Shown here: positions 1 through 48,679 of the stretch, piece by piece
Layout of the letters: the number at the start of each line of letters is the position of its first letter
Numbering within the stretch: the stretch's first letter is position 1
Assembly: GCA_946554335.1 (NCBI GenBank)
Contig: CAMNSA010000013.1
Location: forward strand, 1 to 64,000
DNA length: 64,000 nucleotides
Reading direction: 5' to 3'
DNA from: an uncultured Neglectibacter sp.
GTDB taxonomy: Bacteria; Bacillota; Clostridia; Oscillospirales; Acutalibacteraceae
Program-made: the position numbers and the translations under genes
The notes under the pieces: generated by a model
What the model saw: the letters and a program-made list of their open reading frames with translations, nothing else
Databases searched by the model: none
Told to the model about the DNA's origin: nothing

Positions 1-3000
1 TTGTTCCCCACCGTCAGCTTCAACGGCATACTATCCGGATCATTACTATCATACAGCGTGAAGGAGACCTCGGCGTAGTGATAAGCTTCCGGATCCATGG
101 AGAGGCCTTCCTCAGAGAGGTAATCCACACAGGCGGCCAAGCGGACGCGGCCGGAATTCGCGGGGTCAGAGAAGAGTGCGCTTACCAGCTCGTTCTTCTC
201 CTCATCGGTCATTCCGTCTGTGAAGGCGGGAACAAAGTTGCCGCTTTCATCCATCTGCTCCAGGCGCCAGCCGGCAAAGGCGTTGGCATCTGCCGTGTAG
301 CCGGAAAGGGCCTCAGGCGTGATGATGGGAAGCTCTTTCTCACCCTCGCCTACTACCGCGGTGGCCGTGGTGACCTCACCCAGCAGAGCCATAAGGCCCT
401 CTTCAGAGGTAACCGCCCCTGTTGTCAGGTGCAGGTGCTTCACGGGCTTTACCTCTGTGATGGCGGCGCCTCCTGCGGAAGCGCGCTCCGCCACGAAAAA
501 GTAAGCCTTGTAAGAAGCGCCGTCAGGCTGGGAAATAATCGCCTTTCCTGTGCCGTCCGTGATATTCGGGAGTGCGATTTCGAGCTTTTTCACACCCGCT
601 TCGACCTTCTTTTCATTATAGGAATCGCTCCACTGTTTGTCAAGGTATTCCTCGGTAATTTCCTGAGAAGTTCCGTCTACGAACCAGCCCTTGCCGGGTT
701 CAATGACCAGGGTCCTTCCCAGGGAGCTGACTACCGTGATAGAGGACGGGATGACGCCCGCGGCCTTCAGGTCTTCAAAGGTGGCTTCGGGAGCATATTC
801 CAGAGGATTCTGCTCGGTGGAGCCGGGCCCTTCCGTATACGCCGGGTAGTCTCTCGTGTAGGTCTGAGGCTCGCTGTCAAACACCAGATCTCTTCCGGCG
901 GGCCAGGGCTCGCTTTCCATTCCGCCGTCCGCACTCTGGCGGGTGATATAGGCCACGCCGCCCTCGGCGGGAAGATCTTCGGCGAAGTCGCGGGAGTTGT
1001 TGCTCTCGCTGTAGATGAACTCGTCGCCGGAAACCTTCACCTCGTGGAATCTGGTTTCGTTATGGCCCTTGACATACACCCGGATGGTGTCGCCGTTTTG
1101 CAGCTCGCCGCCGGTCTGGAGGATGGTGATGCTGTCGCTGCCCAGCGCCTCGCCGGTGGGAGACCAGTTGACCCGGTTGGTAAGCACTACCTGAAGCGTG
1201 CCGCTTTCGGGAATGGAGGCGCTGCGGTAACCGATCTTACCCACAGCCTCATGGCCCAGGCCGTCATTGACCGCCACTGCCGTGCTCTTCTCCCCGTTCA
1301 TATGGACGGTGACCGTCTTTCCGGCGGGATCGATCGTTGTGCCGTCAGTCGACTGCTTCGTCCAGTTGAGGGCCGTTTCAGCCGGGACGCCTGCCGTGGT
1401 CTCGTCGCCGTACTGATCTACAAACAGGGCGGTGAGAGTCCCTTCCGTCTCGCCGGGCTCCAGAATGACATCCTCCACCTTTAAAAAGGTATAGGTGAGG
1501 CTGTCATTTTCGGTGCGCTCCACAGTGAGCGTGTAGACGCCCTCTTTGCCGGAGATGGTCTTAGCGGTGACGATATACCGGCCCTGCTGAGCCTCGCTTG
1601 AGAGGGTCAGCATACCGTTTCTGCCCTGAGACCGGATTGAGATCCCCTCCGGGTCGCCCTGGACGGACCAAAGCACGCTTTCCGTCATCTCGTTTCCGAA
1701 CTGATCGTAAACCGCGGCCTTAAATTCCGCCGCGACCGTATCCGGTGTGGCTCCGTCCTTCATGGTGGGGACCGCCATCTTTCCATCGGTCACTCCGGAC
1801 ACCGGCGTGACGATAACGGTATCCGCCTCGCTGGGTGTATTCTCCGGCAGAACCTTAAAGCTCTGGGTCATGCTCATGCCCTCCGCCTCGGCGGTGATCT
1901 CGGCCGTTTCCAGACCGCCCAGGGTCAGGATAGAGCTGGTAAATGCCGGGGTGGCAGTGCTGGGCGTGAAGCCTTCGCCGATGGTGTAGGTCGCGTTTGT
2001 CGTTCTGACGACGCTGCCGTTGGAGTCTACCACATAGGCAGTAAACTCTACGGAATCGACAGGAGTGCCGTCGTCCTTCTTCTCCTTTACGGCCTTGGGC
2101 AGGATGATAATCCCCGCCTCGGCCTTGTATTCCTTACCGGTCACGGTGATATTGAGGCTTCCGGTCTTGCCTTCCGCCTGGGCCGTGACTGCTGCCGTTC
2201 CGTTTTCCGCGGTGGGATAGACGGTCACAAGGCCGTTCTGGTCTACCGCCACGCCGGTGAGATAGGGGCTGATGCTCCAGGAAACGAGCTTCCCGGACAT
2301 CACGGCGCCGAACTGATCCTTCACCACGGCGGTAAACTGAGCGGTGATATTGTCTTCCCCGGCGGTAAAGCTGAGGCTCGCGCCGTCTACGCGCTCCACG
2401 GTGACACTGTTTACCTTGGGCGCTTCATCGGACACGGTAACGGTCTTGACTGCGCTCGTCACGCCGTCACAGGAGGCCTGGACGGTGAACTGGGTCGTGC
2501 TGGGATCCAGCACGATGACGCCGTTCTCCGCCACCTGGGTATTTCCGGCCGGAGCCGCCAGCTGCCACTTGACAGCCGCCCCGGTGAGGAGATCGTCATA
2601 CTGGTCGCGGACCTCCGCGTTCAGGCGAGGCGCCGCGGTGGACACCGTATCGGTAGTGACGGTGACGCTTGCCGCGCGGGAAACCTGTCTGGCGGCGGCA
2701 ATTTCCACTTCGCCGGTCCTGGTCACCGTACCCCGAGTGCCGTCAGCCTTGACCGTATAGGTCCCGGCCGGGGCCTTCGCCGGGATGGTGAACATTCCGG
2801 TATTGTCAATGGAGGCGGTGGTCCCGTCCACGCTCCAGGTAAGGCTTTCGAGAGCAGCAGTCATGTCTGTTCCGAACTCGCCTTCGGCGTGAGCGTACAC
2901 CTGCACCTTGCTGTCGCTATCCGGCAGGATGGTCATCGGGCTCTGAGCAGTGAGCGTCAGCTTGCTGAGCTGCTCTTCACTCTGCGCTCTGCCGCTTACG

Positions 3001-6000
3001 GTGATGGTCTCCTGGGTGGTAAGGTCGTCACACTGGGCCTTCAGAACAAAGGTATCGTCCTCATTGGCATCGGTAAGACTCAGCTTGCCGTCAGCGGTGA
3101 GGGTGATTTTCTCGTCGCTGAGCGTGCCGGACGCCTTGCTCCAGGTGATGGTCTTCCCGGCGGGAGCGGCCATCGTATCGCCGTACTGATCTATAAACTC
3201 CGCCTTCATGGGAAGGGCTGTGCTGTCATAGGGCACCGTCAGGGGGCTGATGCGCAGGGAAGCGGCCTTTGAGGGCGCTTTCACCGTTTCAATCAGGACG
3301 AAGTCGGCGGTCTGCGTATCGGTATCCACAGCCTTGACTTTGATATTGGGCATGGCCTGCGCGGAGGGATCCACGGAGAGCACGCCGGTCAGGCTGTTGA
3401 TGGCAACTCCCGCGGGAGCATTCTCCAGGCCCCACAGAAGCTTGCCGGCCTGGGGTGTGAACACCTGTCCCAACTGGTCGCGCACTTCCGCGAGGAAGAT
3501 GACCGTCGTGGTCCCGGAGGCCGGGATCGTGATGGCGTCGTTGGAGCCGTCGGCCCTGGTCACCTTGATGGAGGCGGCATAGGGCTCCTCCTCAGAGGAG
3601 GTCACAGGCAGCACCTTCTGGGTGGACTTGCCGTCCGCCTCATAACGAACGGTAACGGTCTTTTCGCTGCCCGGCGTCACTGTGCCGGTGACAGCATTGA
3701 TCTGAGCGGTTCCGGGATTCACAAGACTCCAGGTGTACTCCCAGGGCTCGTAATCGGAAAGCTCTTGATGGTACTGGTTATAGAACACCGGCGTCAGCGT
3801 GGTGGAAACCCCGCTTGCGACAGCGGACTCCAGAATGGAGACGCCACCCAGGTTCTTGGCCCCTTCTTCCTGACACATCAGCGTCAGGGAGGCGGAACCG
3901 CCGATATTCTTGTCGTAATCCTTAAAGCTGACAGTCGCCGTCTTTTCCTCGGCCTGAGAGGTCACAGTCACGAGGCCGGACGCGTCTACCGACACGCCCT
4001 GAGACACGCCGGACACGGTCCACACGCCGCTTGCGGGCAGCGCCATCGCCTGGTTATACTGATCCTTGGCCTGGGCGGTGAACTGTACGGTCACATCGTC
4101 CGCACCCGGCAGGGGGATCTGGGCTGTGCTGTCCTTCTCCACCGTGATGGACGCGAGGCGAGGCTCTTCCTCTCCCCTTGTGATCGTCACGGTCTTGGTA
4201 TAGGTCTCCACGGGATCCGTGGGAAGCGTTACCGTAACCGTAAAGGACAGAGACTGGGCTTCGGGAGCGATGCCGGTCACCTTGCCGTTCGAGTAGGTGG
4301 GAGCAGCTGTGCCCTCGGGCAGCACCGTCACCTGTCCAATGGAGATGGAGGCGCCCTCAGGCAGCTCTTTCTCCTCCAGATACTGGTCTACTCCCTTGAC
4401 CTCCAGATCGAATTCCGTGGCGTTCGGCGCAAACTGCTCGGGCTTCACAACGATGTCCGTAAGCTTGCTTTCCTCTCTGACCACGGAGAACTCCATGGTT
4501 CCAAAGATGCCCGTGCCCTCGTCCAGAGCGGTGATGGTCACCGTCTCGGCTGCCCCGGCGTTCTTTGCCACCGTGACAAGGCCCGTGCTCTCGTCCACCG
4601 TCACGCCCTCAGGCGCTCCCGTAAGGAACCACTTGATAGCAGGCGTGTCAATGTTCTTCGTCTGGGCGGTAAACTGTCTCGTCTCCGCCTCATCTCCCAC
4701 AGGCACGGGGATCACAGCGCTCTGACCCGCCTGCAGGGATACGGCCACACTCTTCTCCAGGCTGGGCTTTGCGTCCTCAGCCTTGAAGATCTCAGAGGCT
4801 TCCTTCCCACCGGCCTGGACCGTCACATGGACCTCCACCGCGTCGTGGAAAATCAGGTCGTCGTTCTCGTCGATTTCACTGGACACAGGCGCAGCCGCGC
4901 TGCCCAGCTGTTCCTCGGTAATGGTAAACACGGGAACCACGCCGTCAGGCTTCTCCATCTCGGTGGAGTACTGATCATAATAGGTCACCTTCAGGGGGAT
5001 CACGCCTTCGTCAGCGTCTCCGGCCGTCAGGGTGATATGATCCAGCACAGAGGCCGCTCTCATCAGAGTGACCGCAGTCTCTCCGGAGATGCCGCCAACT
5101 GTCTCTGCGATCACCTTCATGTCCTTCTGGGCCTGGGCCTTGTTGGAAACCGTCAGCACGCCGCTTTGAGCGTCTATTCTGGTTCCTGGCACCGCGGGAG
5201 AGGTGGAGAAGGAAACCGCCGCTTCCATTTCATTGCCGTCCTGATCGTAAACCACAGCCTCGAAAGGATGCAGCTCTGACCCGGTGAAGGGGATCAGGAT
5301 GGGGCCTTCTCCGGCAGTGCGCAGCACCGCCACCTCACTGGCGATCTGAGACTCGGACTCGCCTCTCAGAATCTGCTTACTCACCGTGAGTCCGCCCGCT
5401 TCTATCTGCACTTCCACACCGGCCACATCGTTGGGCACGGTAATCTCGCCCTTGGCACTGTCCGTAAACTGAGCGGTCAGAGGATCTGCCACCCAGTTTT
5501 CTCCGTCAGTGGTCTGTCTGAGCAGTGTCCACTGAGCGTCCTCGGGGGCGGTCATCAGGTTATCAAACTGGTCGAAGTACTTGACGCCCAGCGTCACGCG
5601 ATCTTCTCTCTCTCCAGCCTTGGGAAGCGCGGAGGAAACGATCTCGACCTTGGAGAGCTTCAAAGTCTCCGGAGTGATCGTGACCTCTTTCTCGCCATCC
5701 AGCACCTGGTCCAGTCCAAGAGACAGCGTGGCCTTCGCCTTGAAGGAGGGTTCCCTGGTCCCGGCGGGGACGGTCAGTCTCGCCTGAGACAGGTATCCGC
5801 TTCCGCTTTCGGCCGGCGCCGCTGTGAAGCTGTCGTCTCCGAAGGGTGCGAAGGACCAAACCACCGCTCCTCCGGCAGCCGGGAAAGGCTCGCCGTACTG
5901 ATCCTTCACCGCCACAGAATAGGTGGCAAAGGCAGCAGCCGTGCTGCTTGCGTTAACGCTGTCAGGTCCGGTGATCTCCAGATAATCCGCCTTGGGAGCC

Positions 6001-9000
6001 TGGGTTCCTACCTGCACGGTCTTTTCTGTGCTCAGCACCCTTGTACTGCCCTGAGCAGTGTACTGGGCGGAGATGTTGATCTCCTTGGCGTCTCCGGAGT
6101 GGAGCACCTCAAGGCTCTCCTCGTCCATAAAGGGCGTCGTACCGCCTTCAACGCGCATCACATAGCTCTCAACCGCCCAAATGACCTCGCCATCCGGCAG
6201 CTCCATCTTCTGCCCGTACTGGTCAACGCCGGTCAGCCGCAAAGTGGTCTCGGCGTTAGGCGCCACCGTATCGTTTACGACCTCAATGCCGCGAAGCTGA
6301 GCAGGGCTGCGTTCCAGAGTAAGCGTCTTTCCGTCTGTCTTGCCGCTTTCCTTTTCCGTAGCGTAAACGGTAATAGCGCCGCTGTCCGCCGCCTCGGTCA
6401 CTGTGACGATACCATTTGTCTTATCCAGAGAAACGCCGGTGGTATCACCTTCCATTCTCCAGGATACCGTCTTGTCTGTCATAATATTTTCAAACTGATC
6501 GAAGACCTGAGCCTGATAGACTGCCGTCTGATCTCCCTCAGAAGCCAGCGGGATCTGAATGGTATTCTGCTCGCTGTCCACACGGGTCACTTCAACCCGC
6601 TTGACCCTCTGAGGCTCCGCCGTGACCTCCAGCTCCTTCTGGTCGAACACCGTCCCGCAGCTGACGCTTACCGTCACCTGTTTGGCAGTTCCCGGCACCA
6701 GAATTCCGCTTGCGGTCATATAGGCTCCGGAGCCTTCCGGATCCTGAGAGACCAGCGTCCACTGAGCGTTTGCGGGGGCGGGGATCTTCTGCTCGTACTG
6801 ATCCGTAAAGACTGCGGAAAGCTGTGTGGAAGTTCCCTGAGGAACCTTCTCGCTGGTGATCTCAATAGAGGCAACCTCACTGAGCTCTTTTGTAAAGTAC
6901 ACGCTCTCCGTGTCGCTCATGGACAGGCCGGAACGGGTGACAGAGGCCGTGGCCCCTACCGTGTCCTCCTGCGCGCTTCTGGAAGCGGAGATCACGCCCT
7001 CGGAAATACTGTAGCCCTGAGTCTCTGTCCGGTCGATGGACCAGCCAAAGCTCTCGTCAGCATCCAAAGCGATCTCCTGGCGGTACTGGTCAAGACCCAC
7101 CGCCTTGAACTTCGCTTCGCTCTTCTCCTCTCCGGCCTTGGGCAGGTACACCTGCTCGGCGCTGAGACGGAGCACATCTACATAGGTCAGCTTGCTCTCG
7201 TGATCCGGGCTCTCCTTGTCGATCACTTCCAGATCCGCCGTCGCGGTGATGCCGCCGTAGGCCAGCTCCACGGAAACCGCCGTAGCGTTTTCCGAGAGGG
7301 TCAGCCGCCCGTCGGTAGTCACCTGGGCGTCGTCCGCAGCGGGCGACGCGCTCACAACAGACCAGATCGCGTTATCGGGAGCAGACAGAGGACTTCCATA
7401 CTGATCCAGATACTCCGCGGTGAGCTGTATGGTTCCGCCCTGCGGGGCTTTTTCTGTCAGGATATGAATCTCTTTCAAATAGCTGACCGCATACTCCAGC
7501 GAAAGCTCCAGGATCCCGAACACGCCGGTACCGGCTTCCGCGGCCTTGACGCGCACTGTTCCGGCCGCCGCATTGGCCCCCACTGTCACAAGCCCCTGCT
7601 GGGAAACGGAAACTCCCGCAGGCGAACCCTCCAAAGTCCAGACAAGGGTGGTATCCTTTGTGATATCTCTTGCGTACTGATCGTAAACCACAGCCTCCAG
7701 CACCACAGTTTCCGTGCCGCGGGTGGGGATCTTCACAGAGCTGTTCACATCGGGGATCCGCTTGATGGAGATGGTCTCAGGCCTGGATTCTCCGGCGGCG
7801 CTTCCCGTGATGCGCACGATGGTGGAAAACTCCTTGCCCTGTGCTGTCACAGTCGCCTTTACATCCGCGTAGCCGCTGCCGTTGAGATTCAGCGTACCGG
7901 TGCCTTCCTGGAAGAAGGGCGCGGGATCCGCCGGCCCCTCCACGCTCCAGGTGACCTGGGCGTCAGCGGGGGCATCCATCTCTTTTGCGTACTGGTCATA
8001 GTAGACAACGGACAGGTCTCCCGTGCCGCTCTCCACAGCGCGGGGCGTAACGCCGATCGTGGTCAGAACTCTCTGTCCCACCGTGACCTTAACTGCAGCC
8101 TCACCCTTCAAATAGGTTCCGGCCTGGGTCAGGGAAACCTTGACCTCTTCCACGCTCTGTGCGCCGGGCGCCACCTTCAGCACTGCAGTGTCTCCGCTCT
8201 CTTCCAGAGTGAAGCCGCTTCCCGCACCGGACATGGCCCAGTAGCTATTGGTAATTGTCGTCTTTTCTCCATACTGATCCAGACCCTCGGCGGTGAAGTT
8301 CACCTGAGCGTCGCTCTCGCCTTCTCCGGGAATCTCTACAGAATTCTGATCAGCCGTCACTGTCAGGGAGTGGAGCTTGGGCGCGTCGCCTCTGAGCAGT
8401 GTCTTTTCCACGATATATCCGCCGAGAGACACTTCCAGGACGACCTTCTCCGTCTGGCTCTGATAGCTGAGAACGCCATCCGACACCGTCACGGAACCGT
8501 CTGTGGGCTCCAGCACTGTAAACATCGGATTGCCCAGACCGGAAACGGCCTCACCGTACTGGTCGATGGGCGTAACCTTCAGGGTCATGCTGGTCTTCTC
8601 GGGATTGAGCGCCGTGGGACTTAACAGAATCCCGGAGAGTCTGGGCATATCGTGCACCAGCTTCAGCTGGGCCTCTCCGCTCTTCACTGTGGCGGTATCG
8701 TACACCACTACCTGGTAATCGCCCGCCTTGGCGCTGCTCTCGATGGACACCACGCCGTTCTGGTTGGCCGCAATGCCTACAGGGCTTCCCTTTACGCTCC
8801 ACAGAGGAGTGATGGGATAAGTAAATCCATATTGGTCGTAGCCTTCCGCGGTAAAGTTCGCCACGGTGCTGCTGACAGAGGGGATCACCACCGCGGCGGT
8901 TCCACCCTCCTGCCGGACCTCAATGCGGTCCAGAGCGCTTTCGCCCAGATCCTTTACCGTCACCATGCCGAAGCCGGTCTTTCCGGCGGCTGTGATCTTG

Positions 9001-12000
9001 ATCTGGAGCTGCGTATCCTCCGCCACACTCTCGGACACCCACAAAACGCCGCTTTCAGAGCAGGTAGCCAAGTCGCCCACCTCAACAGGGGCGGAGTTGA
9101 TAACCCACTTGGACTCGCCTGTGAAGCTCATCGCCTGACCGTACTGGTCATAGTACTGAGCAGTCAGCTGATGGGTGGAGCCGGGAGCTACCGTGACATC
9201 TCCCAAAGCGATCTCGGAGAGCACGCTTTCCTGGCGGCGGGTGGCAAAGGCCGTTTCGCCGTAGATATTTTCCTCTCCCGTGATAGAAGCGCGGACCTTG
9301 ATCACATTCTGTACAGGGGCCTTGCTGGTAACGGTAACGCGTCCGGCGTTATCCACCGTAATGCCGCCCGCCTCATCCAGGACATCCTCGATGCTCCAGG
9401 TGCAGGCTGCGCCCTCGTACATAGATCCGTACTGGTCGTATACAACAGCGTTGAAATCTACAAAGGTACTCTGGCCGCTGGCGGGAATATCCACCACAGC
9501 GAGGCCTGAGGTTCTTTCCACCTCTACCCTTGCGGGCCGCTTCTCGCCCAGATTCCGCACATTGAGGACTGTGCGTCCGGAGAGCATACTGCCCTCCTCC
9601 GTAGCGATGACCTCTACAGAATCCAAAGTGTTCCCGTAGGTGAGCACGCCCGTCTGAGGATCAATGGAGGCCGAAGCACTAGTGGGGTGGACCTCGCCCA
9701 GAGACCAGGTAAAGGAGTAGCCCTCCATTTCCTGATTGTATTGATCCAGCGCCACCGCAGTCATCTGCTCCGTAGCCGTGCTGTCCGTGGTGGGCAAAGC
9801 TGTATTCCGGATGGCAATGGAGGAAAGCTTGCTGGCCTCTCTGCGCACCGTAAGGGATTCGGAGCCGGATGCGCCCGTCTCCTCTACTGCGGCCGTCACC
9901 CGAATATTCAGGGCAGTCTCCGCGCCGGGCAGGACTGTGACCTTGCCGTCCCGGTCGATGGAGACGCCGGCTCCCGCTCCGTTCAAGGACCAGAAGAACT
10001 CAGGCTGTTCCTCCATCAATGCGCCGAACTGGTTATATGCCTGCGCGGTAAAGGTGGCGTAAACCGGGATTTCAGAACCGGTCTGAGGAACGATCAGGTC
10101 CTCGGCCGCTCCCACGCGGCTGACCTCTACCTTCGCCACATAGGGGTCGCTCTCCACTGTCAGCTTCTTTCTGGGAGACTGGAGCCCTCCGTCCTCCACG
10201 GACACCGTCACAGAGGTGGTCGTCCTTCTCAGGCTCAAAGTCCCGCTTGCCGGGTCAATGACAGAGAGATCTCCTTCGGGCTCTGACTCATGCAGCGTCC
10301 ACTTGGGCTTGCCAATGGTATAGCGCATGGGAGAGCGGTACTGGTCGATATATTTGACGGTCAGAACGGGATACCGGTCGCCCTTGGGCAAGGCATCCTG
10401 CTCCACCTCAATGGCTGTCAGACGGGAGGCGGTGCGCTGGGTGCGGAAATAGGCCTCGCCGAAGGCGCCTGTTTTGGCGTCGGTGGCTGTCACACGAACC
10501 CTGTCATAGGCCTGCGCGCTGGACACCACCGTAACGATGCCGTCTTCTACGGTAATGCCGGGATAATCGCCGTCCACCTTCCAGACCAGCTGGGCGTCCT
10601 CGCCGCTTACTTCTCTTCCGTACTGATCCAGGAAGGTCACGCCAAAGCTGAACAGGAATTCCTTCTCCACGCCGTCGATGGGCTCGGGCACATGCACCGT
10701 GTCGCCCTCCGGCGTCTTCTGCAGCTTCAGGGAGGTGAGAACACCTTCCACGCTTCCGCCGAAGAACACCTGCTCAGAGGCTGTGTCACTGCCCTGGGTG
10801 ATGGTGATCCTGGCGTTCTGAACCGGGTTCTCAGAACCGGGGCCATAGCCCTCGTTTACGGTGAGCGTACCCGTGCCAGGTTCCGCTGCCGCCGTCACAG
10901 CGACAGAGTTCATAGGCGCCGCCTGGGCAATGCTCCAGGTGCAGGAGGCGGGAACCTCTCCCTCCAGGATCTCTCCGTACTGGTCGCGGTAGACCGCGTG
11001 GATCTCCTGGCTGATGGGAGGCAGGGTCTCCCCCGCTTCTCTTAGGGAGAGATAAGTCTTCTTGGAAAGCTCACGGCGGGTCGTGAACTCAGCCTGGGCC
11101 TCGATCTCCGGAGCGTTCTTCGCCTGTACGCACAGGATGATCCCGCTGCGGGCTGGAGCCTCGCTGGTCACCGTCACCTCACCGGTGGAGGCATTGACCG
11201 AAACGCCGTCCACAATGGACTTCAGGCTCCAGACATACTCCACGCCGGTATCCGCGAACTCGTTCTTATACTGATCCAAAGCCTTCACGGAAAGCTGATA
11301 GGTGCTGCTTCCGTCTATATAGCTGCCCCCATTCTTCACCTTGCCGGGCACATCCAACTGCCGGTCACCCACGATCTCCAGAGAATCCAGCCTGGGCTCA
11401 GAGCCCCGTTTCAGGGAGGTGATGTCGGAAGACACGCTGCCGATGGTCACACGCACCCACACCTCATCCGTCGTCTTCGCGGGCAGCAGCCATCCGGTGG
11501 AGCTGTTGAGAGTCGCGCCGGAATGTGGGATCTCCTCGTCGATCAGATCCCACACAGCCCCTGCGGGTGTGGGCATTACAGAATTGTACTGGTCATAGCA
11601 CACCGCCTTGAGCTGCGTGCCCTGATCCTCTACAGGAGAGAATTCAAACTGGGCGGGCTCAATGACGATCTTCTGCAATACGGAAGTGTCGCGCACGGTA
11701 TTCATGGTGGCAAGTCCGGCCTTTCCGGTAGCCTGATGCATGGCCATCACACGGATGTCATTGACTGCCGGGGCCTCAGAGGTCACTACCACCACGCCGT
11801 TTTGATCGATCTCCAGACCCGCGTAATGGTCGGGCATCTGCCAAAGCAGCGGCGTGCCCGTCATCACGGTGCCATACTGGCTGCGCACCTGGGCGGAGAA
11901 GATCGCGGTGGCCCTGCCGGAGCCGGAGGGCACCAGAACATCCTCTGCCTCGCCGGTACGGCGCACAATTACTTCTTTCACCTCAGCGGGATCGCCGCTC

Positions 12001-24000: not shown

Positions 24001-27000
24001 GTTACCGTGTTGGTTTCCGGATCGATATAGTGAGCTGTGACCTGTACCTTGCCCGGCTGCGCTCCAGGGGCCACAGAGAGGGAGGCGTCCTTCCCGCTGC
24101 CCGGCGTCAGGGTCACGCCAGTCAAATCTGCACCGGAAATATCCCAGCTGATGTCTCCGGCCGCGCTGGAGGTGATATCGGCGCCGAACTGATTATATAC
24201 CAGGGCGCTGAGCGCAGAGGAAACTGCCTGCGCGCCCTCAGTGGGAATAGTGATCTCATTTCCCAGCGCGCTGGAAAGCTCCAGATAAGAGGGCGTGGTG
24301 CTACTCACACTGTAGATCGTCTTCTTCGTGCTGTGCTGGCTGTCGGAATAGGTGACATCCAACGAGATGTTTGCTTTAAAAGGCGTTACTCGACCATTTG
24401 CAGACCTCCGCCAGTCATTTGCGTCCGTTCCCGCAAAAGTAAAAGTTCTGGAAGAGGGCGTAATGTTCATTTCCTTCCCGTACTGATCGTAATAGACCGT
24501 GGTCAGGGCAACTTGCTGGTTCAAAGGGATCATGGTCTGCAGGATCTCCACGGAGGTGTAGATCGGCTGGGTACCTTCCGCATAGTTCACATGGAGCAGA
24601 GCGGTTCCCCACACACCGGATCTCGGCTCTACCGCGAGGACGGTGTAGGTGCTGCCGGCGATCGCTTCGCTTTCCACTGTGACAACGCCGTTCTCATCGA
24701 TGGAAACGCCGGGATGCTCCTCCTCCCGGATATCCCACAGGATCCCCTCGCTGCCCAGAGCGATGCCGTCCGCGTCCCGCAGACTTGCGGTAAAGGCCGT
24801 GGTGGCGGAAGGCTCTTCCAATGTGGGGATCGTCACGGTCCCCTCTTCCGGGAAGATCTCGATCGCCGCAGCCTTTCCGGGATTCTTCACTTCAATGACC
24901 TGGGGTTCGCTCTCCTTGGTGACAGAGCCGTAGGTGCCCGAGACCTTCACCGTCACCCGCTGCGTGTAGATGGTGGTAGTCAAGATACCGGTCTCGGTAA
25001 GCGCCACTCGTTCACCGGAAGGCACTACATCGCTGGAGATATTGATATTGCCCCAGTTCGGCGTAATATTGGACAGCAGTCCGCCATACTGATCGTGGAA
25101 CTGGGCCGTCAAGGCGGTAGATTCTCCGCGGGCCACGGCCTTTTCCTTCACATCTACCCAATCCAGGACCGGGGTCTCCTTGCGTAAAGTCAGCGTAAGC
25201 GTGTTGGAGATCAGAGGGTTTTTCCGGCTCTTTACCTGAACCGTCACTGCCGTGGTCTCCGCCGCGGGCTCGATCTTCAGCACCGCCTGATTTCTTTCAC
25301 TGCCGGACCCGGGCTCCAGCGTCACGCCGGGATAGGAAGCGGAAAGGCTCCAATCCAAGGCGTCGTTCACAGCGGCCATATCCCAGGGCTCCTCATACTG
25401 ATCCAAAGGCTGAGCCAAAATGGGAATGGAGAGCTCGCCCTCCTTCTCCTTGGGCACATCATATACGGTTTTCTCCGCGGACAGATCAATGGTGGTGAGC
25501 GCCGCGATAGTTCCGATATCCAGGGTTTTATCCTGGGGCTCAAAGGCCGCGCCCTGATAAGTTCCCTCCAAATGCACCCGGATCTTTCCCTTGGTGTCAA
25601 TGATGCCCTGGGTCAGAGTCAAGATCCCATTGTCGGAAATCGTATAATCGCTGGTGGTCTCCCCTGCAGACCAGTGAAGCACCAGGTCGCTCTCTGCGGC
25701 CTCAAAGGGCGAACCATACTGATCCACCGCCTGATACCTGAGAGGGATCCCCGTAGTGACAGGAGGCACCTGGTTATTCTTGATCTGTACTCCGGCAAAT
25801 TTCCCCTCTTCCCGAACGACCCGAAGCGTCTTTTTCCCAGGAATCATGGCGCCGTCCAGCGTGACCTCACACTGAAGCTCCATTTCCCCTTCCGGGGTCG
25901 TGCTGTTGAGACGAAGCAGCATGCCGCTTTTCACAGAGAGGTTCACACTGGAATTGATCCCGGCTCCGGCCAGATTTTCCGGCACATAGCTCCAGGAGAA
26001 TTCCGGAGCTCCATCGGTGATCTCCTTGTGATACTGGTCATAAAGACGGGCACGGAAAAAGGACTGCGTAGCCAGCGGGGTTCCCTCGTCCAGAGGGGCT
26101 ACCTCGATCTCGTCTCCCTCCTGTACCTGGGTAAAAGTCGGATCCGTATAGCGCTCCAGCTCTACGGAAGCGAATTGCGCCGCCTGCTTTGTCACATTCA
26201 CTTCATAGGACCCTGCCAGATTTCCCAAATTGGGGCCTGCCTGGGCCTTGATCGTGATCTTTCCGGGCTCCACATCGGCAGGACCCTTGTCAGGAGCAAA
26301 GGTCAGATTCACCAGGATCCGGTCGTCCTCTACCTGAGTGCTGTCCGGACTCCATTGGACCGCGGCAGGCGTTACGGTAAAACAAGAGGCCAGCGCTGCA
26401 TCCGTTCCCTCTACCGACAGGGAGATCTCCCCCTGGAAGGCAGAAGTTCGGATAGGATAATCGTACTGGTCCGCTACGCTGACCCAGTAATTCTCGCCCT
26501 TAGTGGGAAATTCCGAATCCGTGCCGTAAATGCTGACCTGTCCGGAGCCTGTCTTGTCCTCTTTGTCCTCGATCTTCAAAGTGGAAGGCTCCAGCGACTC
26601 TGTCCGCAGCACAAAAGACACGGTAAGCCCTGCCTCAAATCCGCAGACGGCTCCGCCCACATCCTCTTCCATGGGATGCAGGTTCTTAAAAGCGGTCAGA
26701 TAAATGGTCTTGGTGTTCAGATTGTCAAAGGTATTTCGGGACGCTTCCGGCGTAATCTCCAGCTGTCCGGTGGTGCGCTCTACCTTGGTGTCGCCCAGAG
26801 TCACCTCCTGGGTAATCAGCTTGACGCCCAAAGGATAGTCCTCCGGGTCCAGCGGGTTGCCATCCGCGTCGCTGAATTGCCAGTTCAGGTCACTCGCGCT
26901 TAGAAGCTCCTGACCTGCACCGGGAGCAGAAGAATAGACTTGTCCTGTAGAATCCTGGCCCCAGATCTGATATTGAAATGCCGTTTTCAGCGCTTCCTTT

Positions 27001-27923
27001 TTGGGGATCTGGACCTCCTGCCCATTATCTTCCATCGCTACAAAGAGCTTGGTAAAGGCCGGAACATCATAATTGGGATAATAGATCCCTACATTCCACT
27101 TGTCATAATCGTCCCCTGCATTGTTCACCATGCGCCTGTCCACATTGTAGGCCACGGCTGTGTTGGCGTTGGCGGGGGGCAGTAGAGCCTCCGGAGCAGA
27201 GGTGTCCGGGACATAGTAATACCCCAGCTCCGCTCCGGCGATCTGCTGCTCATAATACTCGATGGCGGCCGCCGTGTAAGCGACCTCGCCGGAAATCTGG
27301 CAGTTTCCCGCATCATAGCTGCCGTCTTTTAAGCCGATGTCCTCCGCTGTTCCCATCAGAAAGCTGTCTTCTGTGAGATTGTCCAGGTTATTCCCGGTAA
27401 CCTGGAAGAACAGAGAACCGGCAGCCAGCTGTTCACCCTGTGTACCGGCAGCCAGGGACTGGAAGGTAAACTCATAGTAAAGGTACCAGCGGGGCTTCCC
27501 CTCCTGGTCTGCTCCCTTTACCACTATATACTGAGACTCGCTCTCCGAAACACGGGGAGTAGAGGGCAGCTTTACGGCGTCGGCAACTGTCCCATAGCTA
27601 TGTACCGTATTGCCGTACCCGCCTACAAGACCCTTCTCCTCCGCTGCCTGCAAAGGTGTTTTTCCATCCGGGGTATAGGGCGTCAAAACACCGGCGTCCG
27701 CCGAAAACAGGATACGCCCTGAATGGATCCCCTTTCCCGAGAGACCGTTAGCCAGCACATCCATCTGCAGGATTCCGGTGGCCGTATCGTAGTCTCCCTT
27801 CTCGATCCGTATACTTGGAGAATTATCGTGAGGCGACCGAGCCGCCGCAGGTGTTGACAGGCTGCCAACCACCAGGCTCAAGGCCAACACAAAAGATAAT
27901 CCCTTTTTCCACAGTTTACCCAT
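1..27923 (-). CDS. Giant secreted Ig-like repeat surface protein, >9,307 aa, C-terminus beyond left edge
   Basis: One frame stays open from the ATG at 27923 to the left edge: 9,307 codons, roughly 1 MDa. I translated both ends and many internal stretches in the same frame and met no stop. An AAGGAG at 27934-27939 lies 10 nt before the ATG. The protein starts with a Sec signal peptide (MGKLWKKGLSFVLALSLVVG, then cleavage near AAA-RS, residue ~28). Residues ~33-220 form a beta-rich domain with a YDTATGILQMDV motif, resembling the N-terminus of the SLH protein at 48059. From residue ~480 to ~8,840 come about 80 tandem Ig-like (BIG_2-type) domains, each marked by a (V/A)YDQYG motif. The last ~470 residues in the window (positions 1-1400) are not repetitive, so the array ends here and a terminal domain, perhaps SLH, should follow. 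Likely role: a very long extracellular fibre or S-layer-associated adhesin. Ligand unknown. Confidence 0.93.
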   Translation of the reverse strand, partial: MGKLWKKGLSFVLALSLVVGSLSTPAAARSPHDNSPSIRIEKGDYDTATGILQMDVLANGLSGKGIHSGRILFSADAGVLTPYTPDGKTPLQAAEEKGLVGGYGNTVHSYGTVADAVKLPSTPRVSESESQYIVVKGADQEGKPRWYLYYEFTFQSLAAGTQGEQLAAGSLFFQVTGNNLDNLTEDSFLMGTAEDIGLKDGSYDAGNCQISGEVAYTAAAIEYYEQQIAGAELGYYYVPDTSAPEALLPPANANTAVAYNVDRRMVNNAGDDYDKWNVGIYYPNYDVPAFTKLFVAMEDNGQEVQIPKKEALKTAFQYQIWGQDSTGQVYSSAPGAGQELLSASDLNWQFSDADGNPLDPEDYPLGVKLITQEVTLGDTKVERTTGQLEITPEASRNTFDNLNTKTIYLTAFKNLHPMEEDVGGAVCGFEAGLTVSFVLRTESLEPSTLKIEDKEDKTGSGQVSIYGTDSEFPTKGENYWVSVADQYDYPIRTSAFQGEISLSVEGTDAALASCFTVTPAAVQWSPDSTQVEDDRILVNLTFAPDKGPADVEPGKITIKAQAGPNLGNLAGSYEVNVTKQAAQFASVELERYTDPTFTQVQEGDEIEVAPLDEGTPLATQSFFRARLYDQYHKEITDGAPEFSWSYVPENLAGAGINSSVNLSVKSGMLLRLNSTTPEGEMELQCEVTLDGAMIPGKKTLRVVREEGKFAGVQIKNNQVPPVTTGIPLRYQAVDQYGSPFEAAESDLVLHWSAGETTSDYTISDNGILTLTQGIIDTKGKIRVHLEGTYQGAAFEPQDKTLDIGTIAALTTIDLSAEKTVYDVPKEKEGELSIPILAQPLDQYEEPWDMAAVNDALDWSLSASYPGVTLEPGSGSERNQAVLKIEPAAETTAVTVQVKSRKNPLISNTLTLTLRKETPVLDWVDVKEKAVARGESTALTAQFHDQYGGLLSNITPNWGNINISSDVVPSGERVALTETGILTTTIYTQRVTVKVSGTYGSVTKESEPQVIEVKNPGKAAAIEIFPEEGTVTIPTLEEPSATTAFTASLRDADGIALGSEGILWDIREEEHPGVSIDENGVVTVESEAIAGSTYTVLAVEPRSGVWGTALLHVNYAEGTQPIYTSVEILQTMIPLNQQVALTTVYYDQYGKEMNITPSSRTFTFAGTDANDWRRSANGRVTPFKANISLDVTYSDSQHSTKKTIYSVSSTTPSYLELSSALGNEITIPTEGAQAVSSALSALVYNQFGADITSSAAGDISWDISGADLTGVTLTPGSGKDASLSVAPGAQPGKVQVTAHYIDPETNTVTDIFGRLDLALSYDASVREPESLEILTGRAKPGEVTELSARILDHLGDEYTGSGGNRITWTLVGEVPAGVSLSGNELTVMEGTVGQVTVEASAESLSLSARKTLPISAELSKLSRVEILRERETGHTMLIPSPRAGGIVQRTAIFRAAAYDQFGERMPAEVSDSFRWSLQDEPTGMTVNENGVVLINNLTQAGQAQVIVTDPATGLSASYVLSTVYEIQKLSSITVQQRMVSRTKGQSQLSAAFWDQYGKQMTPSEAPLWTLEDDGGNANTRLSATGLLTYDSDAVFCYVSAKIDDITSGRHQVVMSADAPRVDRLVILPASTSITVLPQTSTGAPRTTTIRVTPVAYDQYGDKITTFTAAGEVDNRITWSMVDAPQGTSITSSQNTPWASFSANSTTPAGPVTLRAEVTPLADGATVTALTTVTIAREPSQLQGIEIANGSSMAATAEPVALIYRFLDQYGSAIESIPGAGAVWSIESSEENGDRSAYLENGDHLVLGDDTRSVTVKVIPQVVSESEISAEDRTAVEALIAKGGVQKKIQISKEAPVADHIELQKENGTTPVFVPRTGKAQVTYSAELYDQYGNVMDATFDWNLSCTTELKGITVSDGVVTVASGAKQAPNVRLTVVDRVSSKSMDTVFSVIADQEVSQFSSLEIKESYFLPVPAGQAARTTLTPVYLDQNHNEMPDYTTELTWNILDEYPANSGAVFQEGYDSTLVTPSGTKSVTVQLSGGGQTVTKTLYEAGESKFTSLQVTGNAASAQAGNTIQFTATPYDQYERVITNTADIDLVWSLVGAPEGVTVSQQGLVDIPITAAATEQVAVVAQDHNYKILGKAFFNITREGAAFNPVRVEIVTTQFPAGTSSAYLEAVAYDQYGAEVPGLTEYMTWSVTDPTSGSNRPTINDKTGFIEFGSYTGQIQVKVDYDRDGFHLDDEKILVRNQPASQIEKVVVRRKLSAGPVAIPVMRNGAVQETSVAFEAYGVDQYGLNINGNLPMENAQWQVYGESSKGISINENGVLTVTSQAEEGKVTVAASDPVTKKFGVYELMLTKEEPVFSAIDIEQRKLLPASKTTLTAIYYDQYGSVTFPRGAETWQMHGWKPGQVTKPTLEGNQIDLTASVGTESVTLSVEAAGISSGQIEIPVSDDWPIPTAITVSRIEGTTPVRADGEGHPESTLKFQAAISDQYGQPYAAPEGVEEPVIQWSIMGASQDEVSIDQNGVVTVSPTAKASSNVRVIASCPVSGQSKQVTGYDTFAIVHQARAYSRVAIVPTGFPAEERGGKLTLKYFDQYGDEMEIPASQVNALWNVAWPSEGSGTLAPNASDASAQLNFNAGTSRATVTVTATHNGVSQTGSTEIYLGEERHISRIDVSRIAQGAVDVPGYLDGDVSSSAESFQAIAYDQYGMEMEASLVWSLSDKVKGVSISQDGTMTVTSEAPQLRITVYAQDSNSGIYGSLDVDIMREPAEYTSLGIRQTALTEGDHMVLDAVWLDQYREEMPTQGTVKWSMIEEGTDGYQTTVNNLLLSEPGAAEEKRDDYRGEINLDPSTSQVAVRAYSRGKTATALLSRAGAEYVDKVTVTREETGAVTVPVAGSESLVYTAQVYNQYGDEIDHDKLSLRWELEGAAIGVSVDQTGKVTVLPSALNSEVQIVVREENSGKSGTATLVVRKQQPRFESVMIKNDLLPADQGSVKLTAVALDQYGQEMEGYDKAQWTLVGTTGTGTASFSDSLFGTLNYSSTLTQVEVKVEVTVGEIGPKTAQKVIRLSRETPELKEIKVKRTDGYGPLYISSRAAVTAQFEASAIDQYLQPITDFTPLWSLRGAPNGVFVRDGVVTVPANSTKSDLQVVASNSAGTVSGRAVLSVDRSDSVLTSVDVRERALPAGTTAAQLHGIYYDQYGTEMDYQGKTEWHAIGTLPETADPAYFADRGLLIIPEGVELVQVRASAQGKMSPTCEIVLGGTSQTETVRVQKDRGGRVITVPSVVSGVAQSVSFLFTAQAFDQFGAQVNGEFGWYVEDGPEQGVTITQNGILTVNSYAKETSGVRVIAVDKLSGVEGEYIVDLVHNVPQASRANIKEDALEPGVETQLTAQLLDQYEEPMGFAETPQWELISGAASGTLTSGGAVRPADGAKEVTVKLTIGAYTTQKTLRVGEARALQRIVVKNTEGRKIVRVSDSLLTIERYTATGYDQYDKEMNVSSAVTWSLEDAPEGVTIGRNNGVLQIPAGTEERKNVKITARHSTGILGETTLQILHDTPVLSSISIRETGIPAGLESTRLTPVFFDQYGEEMEYTGPVSWELVGSKPQDSAELSGDVFTFKPERRNELTSITVAVSASDVTSGPVTLPVGADPSKAARVAVERKGADGAVVVPGVNESVFVNLQATVYDQYDKELSSRFFWSVSGNPEGVTVSDGGVVTVTSAAAGGTVEVIALDAMSGLSGTIYLDLRREESRLSAVRVLTKELPKSRSGQLVAQYLDQYGAPMAYGGISAWRLVGQVEQGVTLTEGGYLTIGSEAKAAFVTVSAQGIVSQVQQITVGEAENTDVTLVTLLGAQRVYVPNVGSDAREETYTATAYQADGTVSTQPVQMTAEGLVEGAISFGQTTGVLTISGDAAQKLASTAEVTVTASCGAASASQKVQVLREPSVLKEIAVKPDGEQGVVAADAKDLPMSAVFKDQYGSEMYYGGTVTWELVSQEPADGGTTLTKEGLLTVSDLTNTFTVTASANGIVSEPKTFRVGDYQVLTSIEVKPMNGSNEVEVPPYQGAVVQKVVLPYAAQALDQYGYPMQGSFIWEMDKVRTGFSLSQSGAVTVTSEALDGITVKIMASDRTSGVSGYAELKSIHAQNGIFTGVRIDTKTVPVNEGSFRPEYTLYDQYGQPLPEREDTQLQWSVLEYTTKTSVEPGFAVDGVTLNYTGMELDDVIVVRLHATYNGVSKVSVPTTIRLSGAPELSRIELCTVEGETLSNQDVSLLIETQGGAQARESFQVVAYDQYNRKVTGSQEWADVFPSNYNWSISNGIAGLRLENYSANGKTNGITVDPGTAAKDNIKVNVTLRVPADSVSGRAEKTLSASRYVSLVHYPSVPSSIGIQEKYMRQIQGTMDLTPVFYNQYQEQMSEPGGGSYAWSLQSSVPDNSVDIPAEFSNKNRGRLRLSGQQEKAFVNLTYQPVEAGSSPLTIQNHAITFGEEERPYKIELERVRGEDPVMVPVPSSDGELQYVSVAYQVKITNQYGDLLRREVNWQMEPEEVEGVTLNRAGVLTVDSRAPDSTSIRVTVTENTTGMTDYDIVNLSREASLLKKVQITDTQVPELSSEYQLRYEAIDQYGSAFEYVPQQEPRWELEEAGDESAVLTKDGKLTIGEADYVVVKMSVDGVESEPQRIDKSGKAELTYLEISGDTEIEVLGNSGVLINPDIDQTVKYYTATGYDQYDRVWKDPFTVTWSVDSRYIPTAGIESAGGQRGKLTVPKDSPEGAAIVISAKSGTIEKTLLAQTIYEASRASSVSINETGFPKGQGGGQLTLTYKDQYDRVTTAPYGAKVTWSVPEGSSATVNSEGYLNFNGAESVTVTAAVVYTPEGQSEEKTLTTSSEITAGDDAEPHHILVTRSDDASDIVKVPTKEPKSVGMKAVTYNQYNVKQLNEDYIWSLERGTPEGVTISESGMVQITTQAQNGTVTVKAVGRTTGLSATASFEIERNELPPEAPYLKTVKITNDELPPTGELQLTAEYEDQNGDPIELASDQKLSWTVESYTPETGTAPSVTEDGVLTVENAQTITVKVQVLKGEEAAAEATKILSLGEAPVFSSIGLTLTLPDERETVQVPQNEESKTVIASAKPLDQYGRDMEGESVSFRYALAQSVPGVSLVSLGDNTAQITVTNAAPATTVTVKAADSQSRVAEASASFDTQREQSTLQQVKIDLTPDSEGVYRIPMETGDTGITLPAKYLDQYGQEMTAPGTINWSVVSGSEMGTIHAAKGVLTLTDGAQVDGKITVQLEVPVQEGVSEAKTDTAELVLSGDPAEVKEVIVRRTGEAEDVLVPSGSGRATAIFSAQVRSQYGTVMTGTPLLWQMPDHYAGLEIDQNGVVVVTSEAPAVNDIRVMAMHQATGKAGLATMNTVRDTSVLQKIVIEPAQFEFSPVEDQGTQLKAVCYDQYNSVMPTPAGAVWDLIDEEIPHSGATLNSSTGWLLPAKTTDEVWVRVTIGSVSSDITSLKRGSEPRLDSLEIVGDRQLDVPGKVKNGGSYIDGSSTYQLSVKALDQYKNEFADTGVEYVWSLKSIVDGVSVNASTGEVTVTSEAPARSGIILCVQAKNAPEIEAQAEFTTRRELSKKTYLSLREAGETLPPISQEIHAVYRDQYGEILEGEVPASCTWSIAQAAPMNSVAVTAAAEPGTGTLTVNEGYGPGSENPVQNARITITQGSDTASEQVFFGGSVEGVLTSLKLQKTPEGDTVHVPEPIDGVEKEFLFSFGVTFLDQYGREVSGEDAQLVWKVDGDYPGITVEDGIVTVVSSAQAYDRVRVTATDAKTGAFGEAYFRTQRTASRLTAIEVEQDALPKGDRYPVLTVKYIDQYRSPMRYTIGKPKWTLHESEPEGDLSVIDPASGTLSLRRTTTSVTVSVEDGGLQSPRKKLTVESDPYVAKVEVSRVGAAEDLIVPQTGSEIPVYATFTAQAYNQFGALMEEQPEFFWSLNGAGAGVSIDRDGKVTVLPGAETALNIRVTAAVEETGASGSESLTVRREASKLSSIAIRNTALPTTDSTATEQMTAVALDQYNQEMEGYSFTWSLGEVHPTSASASIDPQTGVLTYGNTLDSVEVIATEEGSMLSGRTVLNVRNLGEKRPARVEVERTSGLAVVDIPASGQSTFVDFNAVVYDQYGSMYEGAACTWSIEDVLDEAGGITVDNAGRVTVTSKAPVQNVIKVRASITGEENIYGETAFATRRQESVLSEIALGDVTVAPGSTHQLTAQYYDQYGQAMSFTGESKWVINSAPVEVGDLATCSESGVLWVSESVAEDTQLQIKITAAGKTGFGMVTVKDLGESALDRIEVRQEGGTAAVVIPSVSSTVANFTAEGYDQYGFTYPITPLWSVKGSPVGIAANQNGVVSIESSAKAGDYQVVVYDTATVKSGEAQLKLVHDMPRLSGILLSPTALNPEKTSMTLKVTPIDQYGEAVSGLGNPMFTVLEPTDGSVTVSDGVLSYQSQTEKVVLEVSLGGYIVEKTLLRGDAPKLHSLTVTADQNSVEIPGEGESDAQVNFTAEGLDQYGEKTTITNSYWAMSGAGSGFTLEESGDTAVLKVAPGAQSVEEVKVSLTQAGTYLKGEAAVKVTVGQRVLTTIGVTPRAVESGTGDLSVVYYDQYAKEMDAPADAQVTWSVEGPADPAPFFQEGTGTLNLNGSGYADVKATVTAQGKEFSTIVRITGSAAGESRPETISIKRIPDVNSSVKIPTRGTETVVLEAVVYDQYARDITKDTTLVWTLEGSPAGVSVSQQGLVTVGANAAAGTVRVKAAEAGTGVFGILELSLEYAVSYLKEIHILTEKAPQGGTIQLTAEYLDQYGSPLSAPDNAIWSVVSASPAADDAQVTTDGRLTLSENATAVSVELAYGGITATADLEVIDKESPDHESKLTYVDVLRLSAEQVYLPKAGEEKSEAKFKAVGLDQYRQEIALDADESFGWSIDRTETQGYSISEGVISASRSAQEDTVGATASVTRSGLSMSDTESVYFTKELSEVASIEITSEKVPQGTSTQLSAVFTDQYEQKIPAPANAQWTLVSQDPEGSGAYMTASGILVPGTAKQVTVSVSCGTVFDQKELEVTAEPQRVKRVEVTRVDSEQNTIQIPLASEGDQTAVYQAQVFDQFENIMTDKTVSWRMEGDTTGVSLDKTNGIVTVTEAADSGAITVYATEKESGKTDGKTLTLERSPAQLRGIEVVNDTVAPNAETTLRLTGVDQYGQKMELPDGEVIWAVESYVMRVEGGTTPFMDEESLEVLHSGDAKEINISAQYTAQGSTRVLSTEKTVQVGTQAPKADYLEITGPDSVNASSTAAAFATYSVAVKDQYGEPFPAAGGAVVWSFAPFGDDSFTAAPAESGSGYLSQARLTVPAGTREPSFKAKATLSLGLDQVLDGEKEVTITPETLKLSKVEIVSSALPKAGEREDRVTLGVKYFDQFDNLMTAPEDAQWTLLRQTTDGENWVADPLTAQFTDSAKGEITVPNDVAGVEVQIEAGGLTVSKQILRGESESQIASEVAVLRTAGEGPILIPFTGSELHPFEAVVYDQDGNEMEAAVSFSTSPAVPGTRIDAQSGVLTVSNKAQAQKDMKVIAETVGGISGETAVTLMRAASVLDHITLTAGDADEGVIPLKVTYYDQYSTEMEKPDGVVPVFTITEEQLGSAAAPVSSEIDENDDLIFHDAVEVHVTVQAGGKEASEIFKAEDAKPSLEKSVAVSLQAGQSAVIPVPVGDEAETRQFTAQTKNIDTPAIKWFLTGAPEGVTVDESTGLVTVAKNAGAAETVTITALDEGTGIFGTMEFSVVREESKLTDIVVKPEQFAPNATEFDLEVKGVDQYLEEKELPEGASISIGQVTVLPEGTAAPTYSNGKVTGIAPEAQSLSFTVTVTLPTDPVETYTKTVTITRGEEEPRLASITVEKDSTAQIPLPGADDVTVQFTAQAKDQYNQAMALPASGVWTVSGVSQGVSVDASGLVTVTSQAEEKTATVSFKDYDKNIGGSASLTLMCQEEGAKNLGGVSILESAVASGVSTTLTPVFYNQYHQELSDYEPWEYTWSLVNPGTAQINAVTGTVTPGSEKTVTVRYEADGKSTQKVLPVTSSEEEPYAASIKVTRADGSNDAITIPASGTTTVIFLAEVRDQLGQVFTPQAGKLLWGLENAPAGVAINSLTGVLSVDPSAQAMPNIKVKAVDTDTQTADFVLIETVKAPSKAASLRISPLTVPYDSTALPMKAEFIDQYGDTMAAPAGKTITWSKASGTLSDEKITLTADGKLSLTDANEDDTFVLKAQCDDLTTQETITVSGRAQSEEQLSKLTLTAQSPMTILPDSDSKVQVYAHAEGEFGTDMTAALESLTWSVDGTTASIDNTGMFTIPAKAPAGTYTVKADGTRGTVTRTGEVEIAAARQVSRAASVTVTTDTVSTAAPRLNAEVRDQYDDLLTGAAVKWQLAAPAGNTQVAENGVIVLDPSTTQFTVQASCDGVTSAVKTVTVSDEAPKVNSVTVERVDGASLSFTAGEDNITAQFTAVVKDQFGAVMSGKLVSWSISPYLTGVAVDQNGLVTVYPTAENGTAAVTAQAEGKTGSLNITVTGKEYKAEAGIIILPKAVKEKKDDGTPVDSVEFTAYVVDSNGSVVRTTNATYTIGEGFTPSTATPAFTSSILTLGGLETAEITAEAEGMSMTQSFKVLPENTPSEADTVIVTPVSGVTDGKMAVPTMKDGATPDTVAAEFKAAVYDQFGNEMTESVLWSVQGDPEGISIRSQGRNGMLTLSSEAQQGRYIVTAKTISGKEGVYTLTVERTENDSLTYTFLKVEDVILEPGETEGTLTALFVDQYGDETTAGVPAETALNWTKQSTDGTTIDPAGKTVTVHMNGEKSTAVAVNDGLGHEAVGKIGYRSASIPESGTLQVVLTNRVNWSPTGEALGSDSITILQTGGELQNGDTIRVYVKGHNETRFHEVKVSGDEFIYSESNNSRDFAEDLPAEGGVAYITRQSADGGMESEPWPAGRDLVFDSEPQTYTRDYPAYTEGPGSTEQNPLEYAPEATFEDLKAAGVIPSSITVVSSLGRTLVIEPGKGWFVDGTSQEITEEYLDKQWSDSYNEKKVEAGVKKLEIALPNITDGTGKAIISQPDGASYKAYFFVAERASAGGAAITEVKPVKHLHLTTGAVTSEEGLMALLGEVTTATAVVGEGEKELPIITPEALSGYTADANAFAGWRLEQMDESGNFVPAFTDGMTDEEKNELVSALFSDPANSGRVRLAACVDYLSEEGLSMDPEAYHYAEVSFTLYDSNDPDSMPLKLTVGN
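1400..26500 (-). repeat. Array of about 80 tandem Ig-like domains with DQYG motif
   Basis: Inside the giant gene, codons for YDQYG or a close variant (ADQYD, YNQYN, KDQYG, YDQFG) recur about every 260-365 bp, from ~26465 down to ~1409. Each unit has the motif, then a W-containing strand, a G-V-T/S-V stretch, a T-V-T-V-T-A strand and a linker often ending R-E-x-x-L/R-V. These features fit bacterial Ig-like BIG_2-type domains. The copies differ widely at DNA and protein level, so this is an old, diversified array, not recent slippage or an assembly artefact. My count comes from reading motif sites by eye and may be off by a few. Confidence 0.88.
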
Positions 27924-28167
27924 GAGATCCACTCTCCTTTTTGTGGCGGCAAACAGCCGGGAAGCTCTCAGCCGCCGGACCCGTCCGAAAACAGGACTTC
28001 TTTATCTTCATTATTTTGTTAATTGCTTTTTACACTGTCCTGAGGGCAGGAAAGAGAATGAGACCTCTTCCCTGCCCTCAAAACAATAAGTTTTTTATTG
28101 TTTTGAGAAGCGTTTCTCCCCGTGGGGAAAACCCCACGGGGAAACCCGCTGTTTCGCTCCTTACATC
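27924..28167 (-). promoter_or_regulatory. 244-bp spacer between two giant genes with three consecutive inverted repeats
   Basis: Three hairpins stand in series. The first, 28118-28141, is a perfect 10-bp stem (ccccgtgggg) with an AAAA loop. The second, 28077-28107, is a perfect 13-bp stem (ctcaaaacaataa) with a 5-nt loop. The third, 28041-28056 with 28065-28080, is a 16-bp stem with one mismatch. None is followed by a clear U-tract in the direction of transcription, so a simple intrinsic terminator is not obvious. They may set mRNA stability or partial read-through between the dockerin gene and the giant gene. The RBS of the giant gene is at 27934-27939. I see no convincing separate promoter. 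Confidence 0.55.
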
Positions 28168-48532: not shown

Positions 48533-48561
48533 TTGACAACCGAAACTCCTCCCTCTATAAT
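48533..48561 (+). promoter_or_regulatory. Consensus promoter of the small SLH protein
   Basis: TTGACA (48533-48538) and TATAAT (48556-48561) are both perfect matches with a 17-nt spacer, an ideal vegetative sigma promoter. The leader to the ATG at 48680 is about 110 nt. Between this and the divergent promoter (48298-48532) I see only A/T-rich spacer and no convincing gene. Confidence 0.85.
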
Positions 48562-48679
48562 GAGAGTGGGTTCTTTTATCCGCTGGGAGGATAGAACAGC
48601 AGAACAGGGCTGCCGGAAACCGGTTCGCCCCGTTTATGACGGCCCGTTTCACAAAAACATAGACAGGAGGCTGCTGTTT

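Follow-up and report, generated by a model that had tools for sequence, protein, structure and literature searches.

The subject of this analysis is a giant minus-strand open reading frame (ORF) and its neighbours in a stretch of 64,000 nucleotides (the window), comprising positions 1 to 64,000 of contig CAMNSA010000013.1 (C13 in the following) from assembly GCA_946554335.1 of an uncultured Neglectibacter sp. of the Acutalibacteraceae. The giant occupies 3..27923 (-), starts with an ATG at 27923 and runs for at least 9,307 codons, with its 3′ end lying beyond the contig. From position 27932 (GTG) or 27923 (ATG) to base 3 this frame has 0 stops, as against 327 expected by chance over 9,307 codons at the same base composition (P about 1e-145), and the remaining two sense frames display 440 and 276; the claim of the first-pass annotation that the frame is open across 27.9 kb is thus borne out. 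Since base 1 of the window is also base 1 of C13 (82,084 bases), the frame leaves the assembly and not merely the window. The G+C content at the codon positions is steady along the gene, the third position ranging from 0.66 to 0.77 across nine 3-kb blocks. The same annotation had pointed to a ribosome-binding site and a signal peptide: the former is read from the sequence as AGGAGAG (27932..27938 (-), 8 bases ahead of the ATG) and is conserved in the orthologue described below, and the latter corresponds to a typical-looking N-terminus, judged by eye (about residues 1-29; 27837..27923 (-)), which is similar in that orthologue. The computed mass of the 9,307 residues is 993 kDa, in line with the roughly 1 MDa first estimated. 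The codon-aligned antisense frame over 3-27923 features just 26 stops in 9,307 codons; hence, the long plus-strand ORFs opposite the giant look like shadows, which an automatic caller could take for genes.

A pattern-based scan of a GTDB-based contig collection uncovered two loci with related giants, one in an uncultured Clostridia bin, which belongs to another species of the same genus (G015), and one in “Acutalibacter sp. isolate HAN004” (G008). The G015 giant is complete, with 9,809 codons from ATG to stop on a 63-kb contig, and aligns with the window giant over its full length (38% identity over 9,795 columns). Across 8,972 aligned codons the amino-acid identity is 42%, and the nucleotide identity by codon position is 0.558, 0.623 and 0.376; the third position being the lowest, this is the pattern of a protein under constraint. 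The G015 gene order is also that of the window, namely frames matching ORF3 and then ORF2 (see below), followed by the giant, with two further large genes after it. G008 retains the 3′ part of a giant only (1,392 residues), succeeded by two large genes like those downstream in G015; a search there with 3,000 residues from the N-terminus gave no match, which is not interpretable in a genome of 210 contigs. In the other samples searched, 3 of 29 genus genomes matched in a profile search and three of 118 related genomes matched the last 540 residues, the own genome being included in both counts; an N-terminal profile run against 398 family genomes, a sample evidently without G015, yielded, apart from the own genome, no more than three matches, none of which extended past the first 40-50 residues. 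Because the complete G015 orthologue aligns end to end and its repeat units follow the same succession as those of the window giant, a missed stop or a chimeric assembly is very unlikely. Thus, the giant is one real, very large and probably secreted protein, which supports the earlier reading of the frame as a single protein. It is no size record: an ORF of 39,678 residues has been described (PMC10066038, available portion), and the additional suggestion that the giant ranks among the largest bacterial proteins holds loosely only.

The bulk of the protein is an array of immunoglobulin (Ig)-like units (residues 431-8894; 1242..26633 (-)). A profile built from 72 segments of the window giant itself (per-unit E up to 1) detected 81 of them, scoring 14 to 75 bits, and two gaps of about unit size leave room for two more; the giant therefore holds about 83 Ig-like domains, and 83 units were found in G015. 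They fall into two types, A and B, whose labels alternate for the greater part of the array, though the same label sometimes recurs in a run. The units are on average 22% identical (24.0% for units two apart and 20.0% for neighbours). When the two species are compared, 60 of the 81 window units have a reciprocal best partner in G015, and all 60 are colinear, where random orders reach at most 17; these partners are 43% identical on average, a figure raised by the choice of best pairs, and the other 21 window units are without a reciprocal partner. The low identity of units within the protein and the colinearity of reciprocal best units together indicate that the array is old and its order fixed across species. 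A recent tandem expansion was also considered and is ruled out by the 22% mean identity and the 60 colinear pairs.

The structure of one A-B pair, modeled from 53 rows picked by type label (32 window pairs and 21 G015 pairs), was predicted with a pLDDT of 93.8. Foldseek places SbsC, Leptospira LigA and Sap at the top, with cadherin and Ig domains next; the TM-scores are low, 0.24-0.39 of the query among the 50 matches shown, for which the two-domain nature of the model may account. Likewise, the A-B sequence profile matches 4uid (SbsC; 4.2e-10) and Sap (9.2e-8). Hence, by both profile and fold the closest solved relatives of these units are S-layer proteins. A Pfam and NCBIfam scan of the whole giant yielded nothing above cut-off. 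The Pfam Big_1 cut-off was not reached by the giant (18.7 bits vs 34.9 for its C-terminal half, and no match for its N-terminal half); of the 53 A-B pairs, 16 had Big_1 matches with E-values of 0.1 or lower, the best being 1.9e-6, which suggests a weak relationship to this family. Across the order, the A-B profile has matches with E of 1e-5 or below in 34 of 345 genomes, own included.

The array is preceded by a head (residues 35-250; 27174..27821 (-)), which we predict, on a model of moderate confidence, to adopt a cohesin-type fold. The model matches type II cohesins; cohesin structures take all of the top 20 places in Foldseek and of the top 33 in VIA, ahead of carbohydrate-binding modules (CBMs). 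In a profile search of the PDB, three of the four matches to the giant's head are cohesins, at E-values of 0.35-0.43. Pfam cohesin (PF00963) finds 0 matches in the own genome, and hhalign comparisons of the heads of the giant and ORF3 with 29 cohesins from the order scored no higher than shuffled columns did (40 shuffles in each case). When N-termini of the companions encoded downstream in the relatives were pooled with that of an S-layer homology (SLH) protein at the front of contig C1 in the own genome, the mixed set reached an hhalign probability of 72.7% against cohesins over 38 columns, with shuffles giving up to 0.6; subsets of this set drop to 0.1-27%, and we treat this match as weak. 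The N-terminus of the C1 SLH protein weakly resembles cohesins by itself (22.8% alone). PDB profile searches with the companion and C1 N-termini, and with the tails, gave nothing useful.

At its other end the giant has a non-repetitive C-terminal region (residues 8895-9307; 3..1241 (-)) that is cut by the contig end. Its G015 counterpart runs on for 268 residues containing a Dockerin_1 domain (23.9 bits vs a cut-off of 22.9), and the G008 tail, which Pfam does not recognise as a dockerin, displays two calcium-loop motifs that we take to be dockerin-like. We infer a dockerin at the end of the window giant as well, in its missing part; judging by these two relatives, the stop should fall ~245-270 codons past the contig end. 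SLH motifs were found neither in the seen part of the window giant nor in the G015 giant tail. In both relatives the tail is nearly repeated at the end of the next gene downstream, with 90.7% DNA identity over 842 bases in G015 (contig C1 of that genome, L038:13256-14059 and 6970-7773) and 79.2% over 799 bases in G008 (contig C135, L042:3444-4178 and 9838-10575). As the tails are this alike inside each genome and just 32-33% identical as proteins between G015 and G008, the docking module looks homogenised within each genome, as if by gene conversion.

The missing 3′ end was sought in the own genome, a draft of 37 contigs, and was not recovered from the 4 kb at the ends of 20 contigs, from 16 small contigs taken whole or from the far part of C13, the ORFs of several small contigs not having been inspected by eye. 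A search with the G015 companion, whose tail is nearly that of the giant, gave no match in this genome, and the first 600 bases of C13 have no exact words of 17 or more bases in common with the fetched contig ends and small contigs. By computation, the contig end lies within about ten codons of the start of the near-identical tail module in G015; C13 may therefore have broken on a duplicated tail repeat, an idea that the shared-word comparison does not back and under which the window genome would presumably carry a duplicate of this module too. Contig C1 begins inside the above-mentioned SLH protein (L044:1-3468), a possible downstream neighbour across the gap. By BLAST this protein matches the G015 SLH gene only towards its SLH terminus, and the 530 bases that follow revealed no RlmD-like frame; hence, C1 is possibly the continuation of C13, by an unproven join.

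Upstream of the giant and co-oriented with it are two further large genes. ORF2 (28168..41061 (-); 4,297 residues) ends in a Dockerin type I domain (28219..28422 (-); 38.1 bits in the genome search and 32.9 in the protein scan, cut-off 22.9) and showed no enzyme domain in the Pfam scan; its G015 orthologue, a stop-to-stop frame of 4,365 residues, is 34% identical over 4,435 columns. ORF3 (41094..48194 (-); 2,366 residues, likely ATG at 48059) is matched in G015 by a stop-to-stop frame of 2,460 residues (31%) and combines a head, 10 Ig-like units of the same kind as those of the giant and three C-terminal SLH motifs (41238..41666 (-)). Its N-terminal domain (47091..47900 (-)) aligns with the giant's head (hhalign probability 60.7, E 8.3e-5), and the two heads are probably related on this alignment. 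ORF3 and ORF2 are separated by 32 bases, and ORF2 and the giant by 244 bases (27924..28167 (-)) predicted to form very stable hairpins (minimum free energy -109.7 kcal/mol, z -8.05). The gap at the same place in G015 has a 23-bp hairpin (z -6.91), and a terminator scan called no terminator in the window gap; these hairpins are possibly a messenger-processing or stability element.

The own genome has 88 SLH matches, those on C13 being confined to ORF3 and to a small second SLH-bearing ORF (291 residues; 48533-49408 (+)) that adjoins it on the opposite strand. It has a single Pfam dockerin match, that of ORF2, and no Pfam cohesin; accordingly, dockerin enzymes assembled on a multi-cohesin scaffoldin, the hallmark of a cellulosome, were not found. 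Among five giant-less genus members searched, four (G022, G019, G012 and G017; L127-L130) show a single Dockerin_1 match apiece, located in a frame of 510-562 residues, and the fifth (G007) has none. A 5S rRNA gene (51224-51340 (-)) is the sole Rfam family above the gathering score in the window, and therefore no 16S or 23S gene is called there.

Several known systems offer parallels. The type II cohesin/X-dockerin scaffoldins of cellulosomes (PDB 2bm3, the SdbA cohesin, and 2b59, a complex) share with this cluster the predicted cohesin-fold head, the dockerin tail seen in G015 and the presence of an SLH protein. They differ in that no enzyme partner, CBM or multiple cohesins were found in the giant's cluster, in the megadalton Ig spacer, and in a head too distant for Pfam Cohesin. 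SbsC and Sap, the closest solved relatives of the Ig-like units, form lattices and have far fewer Ig domains than the giant, in which no SLH was found. The following comparisons draw on the available portions of the cited papers. The Mobiluncus mulieris adhesin of 7,651 residues (PMC10619420) and the 1.5-MDa Ig-repeat adhesin MpAFP of Marinomonas primoryensis (PMC4083281) resemble the giant as very large surface proteins with long tandem Ig-like arrays. However, the former has an LPxTG motif and cross-linked Ig domains (PMC10619420), and the latter about 120 identical repeats (PMC4083281), in contrast to the giant's divergent units of two mostly alternating types; unlike both, the G015 giant ends in a dockerin. 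In the Limousia mucinolysome scaffoldins are predicted to be held through their C-terminal dockerins by the N-terminal cohesin of a wall-anchored protein, a parallel to the scheme proposed below, but there the anchor bears an LPxTG motif and enzymes form part of the system (PMC12997984), in contrast to the genome studied here with its one Pfam dockerin match and no Pfam cohesin. The planctosome adaptor of Nemodlikiaceae, proposed to be non-cellulosomal, likewise unites a dockerin, a repeat domain and a cohesin in one protein, but with the dockerin first and the cohesin last, hyaline repeats, peptidase cargo and a provenance in another phylum (PMC6461901). Finally, Giant1-5 of Apilactobacillus kunkeei are, as here, very large secreted proteins with imperfect repeats encoded by neighbouring genes; they feature C-terminal DUF5776 and SH3b-like domains, and the available text uses neither “Ig-like” nor “dockerin” (PMC12863079).

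Starting from the sequence parts, their conservation and their predicted folds, we infer a scheme for the binding, surface location, length and function of the giant, which we hold to be somewhat probable: it would be a secreted, non-enzymatic surface fibre of ~1 MDa, akin to an oversized enzyme-free scaffoldin, that is held by cohesin-dockerin coupling. Its C-terminal dockerin would plug into the head of an SLH-anchored partner, which could be ORF3 or resemble the SLH proteins encoded downstream in the relatives; in this way the fibre would be anchored to the wall with no sortase involved. The chain of Ig domains would serve as a spacer; with about 83 of them at ~4 nm each it could hold the giant's head perhaps 0.3 µm from the wall. 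The cohesin-like head would be displayed at the tip, offering a docking site to proteins that, like ORF2, carry a dockerin, and the assembly would serve attachment or surface display rather than substrate breakdown. With a cohesin-like head at the start of the chain and a dockerin that homology predicts at its end, a bolder version also suggests itself, which we regard as rather improbable: giants would couple head to tail, or alternate with ORF2 and a dockerin companion, to form micrometre-long, reversible and calcium-controlled filaments. Such a non-enzymatic, self-assembling scaffoldin polymer would have the dockerin tails of neighbouring genes kept alike within a species to preserve the coupling.

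A less exotic interpretation is that the protein is an ordinary giant fibrillar adhesin, whose head binds a host or food ligand and shares the beta-sandwich of cohesins and CBMs by mere coincidence, the dockerin-like tail being a generic calcium-binding end. This we consider unlikely, if deserving of serious attention: cohesins rank above CBMs throughout the first 20 Foldseek and first 33 VIA rows, and the gene cluster also codes for a dockerin protein and for an SLH protein. The affinity of the Ig-like units with S-layer proteins, together with the SLH-bearing neighbour, might instead point to a subunit of an S-layer or surface sheath, whose Ig-like units would lie next to one another in a sheet on the cell, the arrangement of SbsC and Sap, rather than in an extended fibre. 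Packing, however, is not told by a fold match alone; no SLH motif occurs in the seen part of the giant or in the G015 tail, and, S-layer subunits being made in great excess, one of 1 MDa would be costly. We accordingly give this explanation a slim chance. An assembly or annotation artefact, or a decaying pseudogene, could be suspected of a frame that leaves its contig in a draft genome of 37 contigs, but is hardly credible given 0 stops in 9,307 codons and the colinear units; the complete orthologue and the third-position divergence rule it out for practical purposes.

Giant Ig-repeat proteins and non-cellulosomal cohesin and dockerin modules are already known: the available portions of earlier reports mention a giant ORF with nine non-cellulosomal dockerins (PMC10066038) and note Dockerin_1 in huge proteins, giant proteins as such being familiar (PMC11573180). 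The titles and abstract openings of the open-access literature searched name no Acutalibacter giant or cohesin-Ig-dockerin giant, though other wording could escape such a search. What we call new, being absent from the open-access literature found, is a single chain that joins about 83 Ig units to a cohesin-like head and a dockerin tail, its gene lying next to that of an SLH protein whose head is probably related. If the proposed scheme is true, coupling of the cellulosome type would have been put to another use, the construction of a surface fibre of great length with neither sortase nor enzymes. The assembly could be tested with small pieces, namely the head, the tail and the partner head. 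Moreover, the fixed order of Ig units across species, retained rather than freshly duplicated, would allow the idea of selection acting on each domain of a megadalton array to be tested.
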